The notes beneath the pieces are model-generated. The model saw only the letters and a program-made list of their open reading frames with translations, made no database searches and was not told the DNA's origin. Below, one piece after another: positions 14,416-63,225 of a stretch of 64,000 bases of DNA; the first letter of the stretch is position 1; each line of letters begins with the position of its first letter. The stretch covers positions 1 through 64,000 of the forward strand of contig BEHN01000006.1 of assembly GCA_002898535.1 (NCBI GenBank), read 5' to 3'. Both the position numbers and the translations under genes were made by a program. Source of the stretch: a bacterium HR11. Lineage in GTDB: Bacteria > Acidobacteriota > HRBIN11.

Positions 14416-17361
14416 ATGGCGTGGGGACTCTTCGGAAAGTCGGACCCTCGGAGTGAAGCCCGGCGGGCTCTCAAGGCCGGGGACTTCCGTACGGCCGGCG
14501 ACCGCTTCCGGATGATCGGTGCCTACGACGAGGCCCTCCAGGCCTATCTCCAGGGCAGTCTGTTCGTCGAAGCGGCCATGTTATGCGAGGAGATCGGCCA
14601 GTGGGAGCGGGCCGGCGACTTCTGGGTCCAGGCCCGGCGGTACCGGGAAGCCGGGGAAGCGTATCTAAAGGCGGACCTCCTGAACGAGGCCCGGCAGGCC
14701 TTCGAGAAGGCCCAGGACTACGGCCGGGCCAAAGAGCTGGCCCTGCGGCTGAACCAGTGGGACCGGGCCGGTGAGTACGCCGAGAAGATCCGCCAGTGGG
14801 GGGAAGCGGCCCAGTATTACTACCGGGCCGAGATGTTCGAGAAGGCGGCCCTCATGGCCGAACGGGCCCTGGCGGTCCTGGAGGCCGAGCGCAAGGAGCG
14901 GGAGTACCTGCCCGAATGGCGGCGGGAGTACCAGGCCATTTGTCGGCTCGCCGCCCAGGCCTATGCCCGGACCCAGCAACTCCATCGGGCGGCCGAGCTC
15001 TACGAGGCCGTCGGCGAATTCAAGAAGGCCCGGGAGGCGTACCTCGCCTGCGGGGATGCCGTCAAGGCCCTCGAGATGTCGGTCCGGCTGGAGGACTACG
15101 TGACCGGCCGGTCCATCATCGAGCGCTACCCCGAGGCCCGGGTCGCCCTCCGGCTGTGCGGGGACGTTTACTTCCACCTGGGCGAATTCGCCGAGGCGGC
15201 CAAGTACTACATGGCGGCCGGCCAACCCCTCCAGGCCGCTCAGGCCTTTGACCAGATGGGCCGGTACGTCGATGCGGGCTTTCTCTACGAGCAGGCCGGC
15301 GAGTGGGAGGCGGCCGTCGAGCTGTACGTCCGGGCCCAGGCCTGGGACCGGGCGGCGGCCGTGTATGCCAAGATGGGGAGTCCTCTTCAGGCGGCCGCCT
15401 ACTACGAGAAGGCCGGCCGTCTGGAGGCGGCCGTCGACCTGTATGTCCAGGGCCAGCGGTACGCCGACGCCGGCCGGCTTCTTCATCAACTCGGTCGGAC
15501 CGACGAGGCCATCGCCCTCCTTCAGAAGGTCGACCGTCAGGACCCCGCCTACGTCCAGGGCGTAGCCCTCTTGTGCCGCCTCTGGATCGAAAAGGGAATG
15601 GCCAGTCTCGCCCTTCGGCGGGTCGAGGAGCTGATCGCCGCCAAGGACCTCGACGCCGACATGGTCGAGCTGTACTACCTCCAGGGTCGGGCCCTGGAGG
15701 CCCTGGGCCGCTTCCAGGAGGCCCTGGCCGTCTACGAGTCGGTCGTCGCCCAGGACATGCATTACGCCGACACGCAGGAGCGGATCCGGCGGCTGACGAC
15801 GGCGCCGACCCCGGCGGTGCCGGACGCCCAGACTCACGCCCTCGACCCCCGCTGGGACGTCTTGGGCGTCCTCGTTTCGGCGCCCCACATGACGCTCCTC
15901 AAGGTCGTCGACAAACGGCGCAACTCGCCGGCCCTGGTCCAGCGGATTCAGGCCCCGGGCCTGGTCCTTTCAGAGGCGGCGGCCCGGCTCCAGGGCCTCC
16001 GGAACCTGCGGCATCGCTTTCTGGCCCTCCCGTATGACGTGGCCGCGGACGGCGGCGCCCTGCTCGTCAGCGTCGAATACGCCGAAGGCGTCAGCCTGCG
16101 GGACTGGCTCCAGACGCCCCGGTCCGTCGCCGAGGTCCAGGAGGTCGCCCTGCAGGTCGCCCAGGCCCTGGCCTTCTGCCACCGCTCGCAGGTCGTCTTC
16201 GGGGCCCTTCTACCGGAGCACGTCCTGGTCGCCCCGGACCGGTCCGTCAAGCTGGTCCCCTGGGACGTCTATCTCTCGGCCTTGCCGGCCGAGACGCCTT
16301 ACGCATCGCCGGAGTACCGCACCCGCCAGGCTCTGAGCCCGGCCAGCGACGTGTACGCCTTCGGGGTCCTCCTCCATGAGCTCCTCCTGCGCCGTCTCCC
16401 GACGTGGCCCCTCGACCTGACCGACGCCGGCGTCCCGACCCCCCTGGCCCGCATCCTGACGGCCTGCCTCCAGGCGGACCTCGCCCGCCGGGTCGCCTCG
16501 ATGGACGGCGTCGTCGAGGCCCTGGCGACCATCGACATCTACGAGGGCGCCGTCATCGACGACCGTTATGAGATCTTGAAGGAACTCGGCCGGGGCGGGA
16601 TGGCTCGCGTGTACCTCGCCCACGATCGCGTCCTGGGCGAGAAGGTCGCCCTGAAGGTCTGGCACTCGGACTTGATGGCGACGGCCGCCATGTCCCATCG
16701 GCTCCTTCGGGAGGTCAAGCTCGCCCGGTCGATCCTGCATCCGAACGTCGTGCGGCTGTTCGAGCTGGGGACTTACCGGGGAGCCCGATACGTCACGATG
16801 GAATACGTCCCCGGCGCCTCTCTGGACGCCATCGTCCGTCGGACGGGCCCCATCCCGCCGCGGCTGTGGTGGAAACTGGCCGTCCAGATCGTCGAGGGCC
16901 TGAAGGCCGCCCACGACGTCGGCGTCATCCATCGGGACCTGAAGCCCCAGAACGTCATGGTCACCCAGGACGGCCGGGTCAAGATCCTGGACTTCGGCAT
17001 CGCCGGCGTCTTGGACAGTTCGGACCACACGCAGACCCAGAGCATCGTCGGGTCCCCCAAATATATGGCCCCCGAACAGATTCAGGGTCAGCGTCTGGAC
17101 GTCCGGACGGACCTGTACGCCCTGGGGGCCATCTTCTACTTCATGCTGACCGGCCGGGAGGCTTTTTCGGGTGAGACCGTCCAGGCGATCCTGACCAAGC
17201 AGTTGACCGAGATGCCCCCGCCCCTCCGGCACTGGGTCCCGAACGTACCGGAGTTCCTGAACGACTGGGTCCTGAAGCTCTTGGCCAAGCGGATGGAGGA
17301 CCGGCCCCCGAACTGTGCGGCCGTCCTCGAATTTCTGTACCGTATCAAGGACCGCCTCTGA
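14416..17361 (+). CDS. TPR-repeat, pseudokinase and Ser/Thr protein kinase fusion
   Basis: The protein (981 residues from ATG 14416) has three parts. Residues of about 10-470 are tandem helical TPR/SEL-like repeats (DEALQAYLQGSLFVEAAML, RAAELYEAVGEFKKAREAYL, EAIALLQKV). About 478-708 is a kinase-like domain that has lost its catalytic residues: QVVFGALLPEHVLV stands where HRDxKxxN should be and VPWDVYLS where DFG should be. About 717-975 is an apparently active kinase: GRGGMARVYLA, lysine in VALKVW, IHRDLKPQN, LDFGIAG and YMAPEQI. No transmembrane helix is visible, so it is cytoplasmic. The pseudokinase could regulate the active domain and the repeats could bind partners; both are inference. 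The start follows codon bias and avoids the repeat-encoded leader. The thioesterase gene follows by 98 bp. Confidence 0.92.
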   Translation: MAWGLFGKSDPRSEARRALKAGDFRTAGDRFRMIGAYDEALQAYLQGSLFVEAAMLCEEIGQWERAGDFWVQARRYREAGEAYLKADLLNEARQAFEKAQDYGRAKELALRLNQWDRAGEYAEKIRQWGEAAQYYYRAEMFEKAALMAERALAVLEAERKEREYLPEWRREYQAICRLAAQAYARTQQLHRAAELYEAVGEFKKAREAYLACGDAVKALEMSVRLEDYVTGRSIIERYPEARVALRLCGDVYFHLGEFAEAAKYYMAAGQPLQAAQAFDQMGRYVDAGFLYEQAGEWEAAVELYVRAQAWDRAAAVYAKMGSPLQAAAYYEKAGRLEAAVDLYVQGQRYADAGRLLHQLGRTDEAIALLQKVDRQDPAYVQGVALLCRLWIEKGMASLALRRVEELIAAKDLDADMVELYYLQGRALEALGRFQEALAVYESVVAQDMHYADTQERIRRLTTAPTPAVPDAQTHALDPRWDVLGVLVSAPHMTLLKVVDKRRNSPALVQRIQAPGLVLSEAAARLQGLRNLRHRFLALPYDVAADGGALLVSVEYAEGVSLRDWLQTPRSVAEVQEVALQVAQALAFCHRSQVVFGALLPEHVLVAPDRSVKLVPWDVYLSALPAETPYASPEYRTRQALSPASDVYAFGVLLHELLLRRLPTWPLDLTDAGVPTPLARILTACLQADLARRVASMDGVVEALATIDIYEGAVIDDRYEILKELGRGGMARVYLAHDRVLGEKVALKVWHSDLMATAAMSHRLLREVKLARSILHPNVVRLFELGTYRGARYVTMEYVPGASLDAIVRRTGPIPPRLWWKLAVQIVEGLKAAHDVGVIHRDLKPQNVMVTQDGRVKILDFGIAGVLDSSDHTQTQSIVGSPKYMAPEQIQGQRLDVRTDLYALGAIFYFMLTGREAFSGETVQAILTKQLTEMPPPLRHWVPNVPEFLNDWVLKLLAKRMEDRPPNCAAVLEFLYRIKDRL

Positions 17362-63016: not shown

Positions 63017-63108
63017 GGAGAGGTGTCCGAGCGGTCGAAGGAGCACGGCTGGAAACCGTGTACCCGCCGCAAGGCGGGTCGTGGGTTCAAATCCCACCCT
63101 CTCCGCCA
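63017..63108 (+). tRNA. tRNA-Ser (anticodon GGA)
   Basis: Acceptor stem GGAGAGG pairs with CCTCTCC, then discriminator G and encoded CCA at 63106-63108. The anticodon GGA lies at 63051-63053 in the stem CACGG/CCGTG. A long variable arm (ACCCGCC/GGCGGGT) marks it as a class II serine tRNA. The T arm contains GTGGGTTCAAATCCCAC. The tRNA-Ser, SRP RNA and dnaX order is common in bacteria. Confidence 0.97.
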
Positions 63109-63120
63109 CGGCGTCGGCCC

Positions 63121-63225
63121 GGGGGTATGGGTCCCGTGCGATGGCGGCCCGCGAACCCCGCCAGGCCCGGAAGGGAGCAACGGTAAGCGGTGTCCGGCAT
63201 GCGCCGCGGGGGCGCCTGTACCCCC
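63121..63225 (+). ncRNA. ffs: Signal recognition particle RNA (4.5S type)
   Basis: The conserved SRP core lies at about 63150-63195: CGAACC, CAGGCCCGGAAGGGAGCA and ACGGTAAGCG match the helix 8 GGAA tetraloop and Ffh-binding internal loops. The outer stem pairs GGGGGTA (63121) with TACCCCC (ending 63225). It is about 105 nt long, in the range of small bacterial SRP RNAs. It starts 13 bp after tRNA-Ser, so the two are likely co-transcribed. Exact ends are estimated from pairing. Confidence 0.9.

Follow-up and report, generated by a model that had tools for sequence, protein, structure and literature searches.

A predicted pseudokinase precedes an active-type Hanks kinase in a helical-repeat protein family of Acidobacteriota

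In the eukaryotic JAK proteins, the pseudokinase domain JH2 regulates the kinase domain JH1. Signaling by JAKs and by GCN2 centers on such pseudokinase-kinase pairs. In GCN2, the pseudokinase (YKD) activates the adjoining kinase (KD) via αE and αI contacts (PMC4014428). The bacterial examples that we found described are defense proteins, namely PglW, from type 2 BREX, and certain DndF proteins, which have been published as a NERD domain followed by a pseudokinase and an active kinase (PMC12839542); two kinase domains were likewise described for PglW elsewhere (PMC4365076). The bacterial pseudokinase families were reviewed in 2025 without mention of tandem kinases, TPR or Acidobacteria (PMC12599244). 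In the planctomycete and myxobacterial TPR-kinases, the TPRs are mostly C-terminal and often predicted to be periplasmic, and no pseudokinase is discussed (PMC11032199).

The protein considered here is encoded in a 64,000-nucleotide stretch of DNA from the Acidobacteriota bacterium HR11, hereafter called the window. Its gene is a single intact open reading frame with no internal stops, and the 981-residue product consists of a helical array (residues 11–461) followed by a predicted pseudokinase and a Hanks kinase (Table 1). The ATG at position 14416 is common to the orthologues L009 (96%) and L010 (91%), and 5′ of this codon the L010 sequence departs from that of the window, except in the immediate ribosome-binding stretch. 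Pfam assigns helical repeats to residues ∼1–460, a partial but significant Pkinase match to the middle of the protein, and a full Pkinase match to residues 718–965. No transmembrane helix is apparent in the window protein, which is probably a soluble, cytosolic signaling kinase. A sequence-only reading of this DNA had proposed a single polypeptide made up of helical repeats, then a pseudokinase, then an active kinase, and this proposal is borne out by sequence profiles, structure prediction, 41 relatives and selection.

Table 1. Coordinates of the gene and of its predicted protein modules within the window
Feature	Position in window	Strand	Basis
Solenoid-pseudokinase-kinase gene, complete, 981 aa	14416..17361	+	ORF and full-length relatives
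α-Solenoid, 13-residue period, residues 11–369, ∼27 short helices, consensus AAxxYxxAGxxxx	14446..15522	+	AlphaFold2 helices, autocorrelation, invariant Ala spacing
TPR-like helices, residues 379–461	15550..15798	+	Pfam TPR_2/TPR_8 at 418–447; longer modeled helices
Solenoid-pseudokinase linker, residues 463–474, low confidence, variable length	15802..15837	+	pLDDT < 50; R456–R479 span
Predicted pseudokinase domain, residues 478–708	15847..16539	+	Pfam, profile comparison, AlphaFold2, Foldseek
β3 Lys site, Q509; C-spine Ala site, Leu507	15940..15942	+	Family alignment
HRD site, FGA, residues 595–597	16198..16206	+	Family alignment
DFG site, PWD, residues 615–617	16258..16266	+	Family alignment
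Pseudokinase-kinase junction, residues 705–715	16528..16560	+	Residue spans measured in 41 relatives
Active-type Hanks Ser/Thr kinase, residues 716–968	16561..17319	+	Pfam, catalytic motifs, Foldseek to PknB

The C-terminal kinase domain carries all catalytic motifs of the Hanks-type Ser/Thr kinases, including the glycine loop GRGGMARV, K747, H839-R840-D841, N846 and D859-F860-G861. When isolated, it matches PF00069 with an E-value of 2.7e-54 and the model NF033483 with an E-value of 1.5e-91, and Foldseek aligns it to PknB with a TMt of up to 0.93 at ∼33 to 35% identity. The catalytic residues are kept across the family (K, H, R, D and N in 41/41 sequences, DFG in 40/40). By its sequence, the second domain is a catalytically complete Hanks kinase that looks active.

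The domain that precedes it has a kinase fold as well. The isolated middle segment gives a partial match to Pfam Pkinase (E-value 2.7e-15), and an alignment of the first domain against the second with hhalign, using 14 relatives, yields a probability of 100% and an E-value of 1.8e-62 over 249 columns. The earlier reading had staked its case on structure prediction returning a kinase-like fold here, which is what was found. AlphaFold2 models residues 474 to 712 as a kinase fold (pLDDT 90.5, pTM 0.90), and the top PDB match of this model in Foldseek is Stk1/PknB from S. aureus (E-value 4e-17, TM 0.80). As that reading had also noted, the HRD and DFG residues are missing. The HRD site reads F595-G596-A597 and the DFG site P615-W616-D617, such that alanine and proline occupy the positions of the two catalytic aspartates; in addition, the β3 lysine is replaced by glutamine (K509Q), and the position of the catalytic-loop asparagine is H602. 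The flanking features that had been singled out are indeed present, with YASPEY (residues 629–634) forming the APE motif and SDVYAFGVLLHELLL (from residue 644) the αF aspartate region. What the first domains retain across the family is the kinase scaffold, comprising the PE of APE, the αF Asp, L-x-H, G-x-x-L and the αH/I Arg, and the window protein retains the APE Glu, αF Asp and αH/I Arg among these. The activation segment is shortened and variable in the pseudokinase (15 to 28 residues), compared with mostly 28 to 31 residues in the kinase. Both sequence and model therefore confirm the first domain as a predicted pseudokinase, that is, a kinase fold devoid of its catalytic residues. Because a glutamine stands at the β3 Lys site, a leucine occupies the adenine-pocket Ala site, and the glycine loop is lost in the pseudokinases of the window's genus, ATP binding is probably absent in this genus.

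The helical arm had been described as a long TPR-like array. Helical repeats are present and TPR-like helices do occur at residues ∼379 to 461, but the array is mostly something else. Between residues ∼11 and 369, or 9 and 372 by autocorrelation, the sequence has a strict 13-residue period (autocorrelation z of 8.7 at lag 13, with lags 26 and 39 high too), and lag 34 is absent among the top autocorrelation lags. The AlphaFold2 model shows helices of ∼10 residues separated by 3-residue loops, and invariant alanines recur at 13-residue intervals in 14 relatives. Helices of canonical TPR length are confined to the final segment, where the TPR_2 and TPR_8 matches are significant; Pfam TPR, Clathrin and IFT models fit the 13-residue helix array only partially. 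Among solved structures, the array matches engineered TPRs, O-GlcNAc transferase and IFT121 in sequence. The periodicity and the model thus indicate an arm that is mainly a 13-residue single-helix repeat rather than a classical 34-residue TPR, and this solenoid is a candidate sensor arm.

The sequence-only reading had likened the protein to JAK-type tandems and called such fusions seldom discussed in bacteria. Seldom discussed they are, but JAK is not the sole analogue, given GCN2 (PMC4014428), and bacterial cases have been published in PglW and DndF (PMC12839542). Like JAK/TYK2, the window protein has a pseudokinase placed immediately N-terminal of the active kinase (as JH2 to JH1) and, ahead of it, a putative protein-binding arm, and its pseudokinase profile matches the TYK2 structure 4oli. 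In contrast to JAKs, which are tyrosine kinases, its kinase is bacterial, Ser/Thr-specific by type and PknB-like, and Pfam finds neither FERM nor SH2; as an architecture, it is not homologous to JAK. GCN2 offers the nearest worked-out analogy. Like the window protein, it carries a pseudokinase next to a Ser/Thr kinase domain and N-terminal of it; the pseudokinase profile matches the GCN2 structure 8t7t. GCN2 differs in being eukaryotic and in having HisRS-like and RWD domains, which the window protein lacks. With PknB/Stk1 the likeness lies in the second domain, but the PASTA domains are absent and NF033483 scores 351.7 bits against a cutoff of 450, with the kinase part alone matching. The bacterial pseudokinases ActPs1–3, GLW, CP1, DYD and DLHK likewise have degraded VAIK, HRD and DFG motifs, but their family motifs are different (for example, GLW replacing HRD, and the link of CP1 to COG3899) (PMC12599244). 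The planctomycete and myxobacterial TPR-kinases and PknG resemble the window protein in combining a kinase with helical repeats.

Among bacterial proteins, PglW and some DndF proteins share with the window protein the order of pseudokinase then kinase. In L181, a PglW encoded in genome G063 of the same phylum, the first domain reads HRT and NWH at the HRD and DFG sites, in agreement with the published description of a pseudokinase, and the second reads HRD and DFS. The window protein differs in lacking NERD, as judged by Pfam, and the C-terminal wHTH/iSTAND half. Its identification as PglW was rejected, as NF033442 gives 90.6 bits against a cutoff of 990 and NERD is missing. A common origin with the PglW pseudokinase was likewise not retained: the tree nests PglW inside the family pseudokinases on a branch of ∼3 changes per site, a separate placement is not rejected (p-AU 0.353), and the nesting is a probable case of long-branch attraction. 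Among open-licence papers we found no description of the tandem family in Acidobacteriota. What is new is the pseudokinase-kinase family and not the principle, as the bacterial order is already known in PglW and DndF.

To map the family, 396 Acidobacteriota genomes were searched with a profile built from 14 full-length relatives, and by our count the tandem protein is present in 41 of them (about a tenth), distributed over 11 family-level groups. Intact genes score ∼690 to 1381 bits and a kinase-only class scores ∼385 bits or less. Between the two classes fall contig-end fragments, a gene split over two contigs (G109), and a partial match in group f73 (G245, 594 bits). Three genomes of group f38 (G220:C7:36454-38595, G340:C77:20158-22362 and G065:C52:87596-89734) have matches of ∼437 bits in open frames of 800 to 850 amino acids; these matches span profile positions ∼7 to 713, from the solenoid to the end of the pseudokinase, with the second kinase outside the match. 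When the five genomes of the class were scored in depth, each had exactly one full-length copy. At threshold, the tandem was found in none of 331 Myxococcota, 343 Planctomycetota and 349 Pseudomonadota genomes when the best two candidates per genome were considered without an in-phylum positive control, so absence from these ∼1,020 genomes reflects a limited search and is not proof of absence. Listed kinase-domain matches to the profile number 136 in genome G004 (group f3) and 9 in the window's genome. Separately, two-kinase open reading frames occur in a Myxococcales MAG (L027:5554-8742, + strand), with HRD and DFG in both domains, and in a Deltaproteobacteria MAG (L022:5857-8715, + strand); these are kinase-kinase tandems beyond the Acidobacteriota.

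Domain trees cluster by host family, which is consistent with vertical inheritance. A tree of 95 kinase domains contains a branch with an SH-aLRT of 100 that has all 33 first domains on the same side, a result consistent with a single origin of the first domains, though long-branch attraction is possible because they evolve fast. Ratios of dN/dS between close relatives are 0.11 to 0.26 for the pseudokinase and 0.03 to 0.14 for the kinase. At the sequence level, the pseudokinase is thus clearly under purifying selection, albeit constrained less tightly than the kinase; in most of the pairs it has diverged more quickly than the kinase, and outside the window's genus its identity to the window's pseudokinase is ∼18 to 27%. 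The spacing between the two domains is fixed by comparison. Residues 701 to 717 make up a span of 17 residues in 41/41 sequences, and the stretch from R692 to R717 is 25 residues in 38 of the 41 and 24 in the other three, whereas the solenoid-pseudokinase span (R456–R479) ranges from 15 to 69 residues among relatives. A mechanically coupled pair would need such a constant junction, although some of it corresponds to the lead-in strand usual in many bacterial kinases.

Catalytic residues have been lost from the first domains to different extents. The HRD Asp is missing from 40/41, the β3 Lys from 38/40 and the DFG Asp from 23/41, counted as sequences and not as independent events since the 41 rows include a few near-identical pairs. 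The sole exception for the HRD Asp is L169 of group f40 (L169:1099-5367, − strand), in which the first kinase is apparently intact (glycine loop, VAVK, HRD and DFG) and the frame of the second kinase is broken just past DFG, possibly by an assembly error. First domains of group f19 have only two changes, HRN in place of HRD and Arg in place of Lys; they retain the glycine loop, the catalytic-loop Asn, the small C-spine Ala and DFG, and by these residues may still bind ATP. All members of group f6 except one keep DFG. More has been lost in f5, f31, f73, f13, f2/f3 and the window's genus, and in most of these a bulky residue fills the adenine-pocket Ala site. Because the first kinase of L169 is intact, we infer that the ancestral first domain may have been active. 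Tentatively, and at less than even odds, these sequences could represent a previously unreported, vertically inherited Acidobacteriota family of cis-regulated pseudokinase-kinases in which graded stages of pseudokinase birth are preserved, from the intact tandem of f40 through the nucleotide-competent HRN/DFG form of f19 and the DFG-only form of f6 to the fully dead, pocket-blocked form of the window's genus. If this is true, first catalysis and later ATP binding would have vanished, with the allosteric role unchanged throughout. A single-copy soluble family with ∼41 natural variants, running from an intact to a fully dead first domain, could serve as a bacterial model of dead-kinase control, and would allow one to ask directly if ATP binding is necessary for an allosteric pseudokinase and by what route a dead copy comes to control a live one.

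By analogy with JAK and GCN2, we favor a mechanism, to which we give a probability of about 0.6, wherein the solenoid engages a partner and the pseudokinase controls the kinase next to it by allostery. The N-terminal helical solenoid would bind a protein partner, and binding would alter the packing of the pseudokinase on the kinase. The signal would pass from the αI helix of the pseudokinase through the short junction to the N-lobe of the kinase, which would thereby be switched on or off, as by JH2 acting on JH1 in JAKs or YKD on KD in GCN2. Regulation in cis is supported by the near-universal loss of catalytic residues in the first domain versus their full retention in the second, and by the invariant 17-residue junction despite low pseudokinase identity and a variable solenoid linker. 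The full-length AlphaFold2 model has a pTM of 0.44 and hence does not predict the relative orientation of the domains, such that contact between pseudokinase and kinase stays putative. Against regulation in cis, no neighbor shared across families points to a partner, and related solenoid-kinases exist that have no pseudokinase. These include L100 of group f17, which groups with f73 kinases at an SH-aLRT of 99, and the Acanthopleuribacter-type proteins L012–L018; solenoid and kinase can therefore work as a pair without the module, which is dispensable.

The same observations bear on other roles for the first domain. It could recruit a substrate or dimerize, like MviN and EssB, and so bring targets to the kinase without altering its activity; several functionally studied bacterial pseudokinases are scaffolds or dimerization modules (PMC12599244), and the fast divergence of the pseudokinase in most pairs suits lineage-specific partners. 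The fixed junction in 41/41, however, suggests a set geometry with the kinase, for which a freely docking module has no need, and we consider this role unlikely while giving it appreciable weight. Fast divergence, together with the complete absence of the domain from some relatives, would also fit an evolutionary leftover, in which a tandem duplicate lost its activity and became an inert spacer. This we judge improbable, as dN/dS values of 0.11 to 0.26 indicate clear purifying selection and a confidently predicted fold (pLDDT 90.5) has been kept in 11 family-level groups. An enzyme of altered chemistry (AMPylation, glutamylation or HRD-free phosphotransfer), as in SelO, SidJ and reported HRN kinases, would fit f19, with its two changes alongside a kept glycine loop, C-spine Ala, catalytic-loop Asn and DFG, and L169, whose first domain is fully intact; activity has been reported for the HRN domains of HER3 and JAK2 (PMC7586955). 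The window's genus lacks all three catalytic residues, the glycine loop and the small adenine-pocket residue, which makes such chemistry very improbable. Allosteric control in cis by the pseudokinase remains our preferred reading.

Gene neighborhoods vary with the lineage. The thioesterase, DUF502, CoaX and PurH genes are common to the window's genus and not to the other families compared; as the sequence-only reading had said of the thioesterase and DUF502, they do not explain a target, nor do they contradict one. A conserved operon partner was rejected, since no neighbor is kept across the families compared. Membership in a defense system was rejected as well, because the PADLOC matches reflect generic kinase similarity. 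BREX genes were not noticed in those stretches around family members that were examined. The tandem kinase of groups f5 and f31 (L125:6000-12998, L126, L127, L128 and L129) is followed by genes for a PhoH-PIN protein, an NtrY-like histidine kinase, an NtrC-like σ54 activator and a Ras-like small GTPase. Elsewhere in the window, positions 63017 to 63224 hold a tRNA-Ser(GGA) with a small SRP RNA directly after it.
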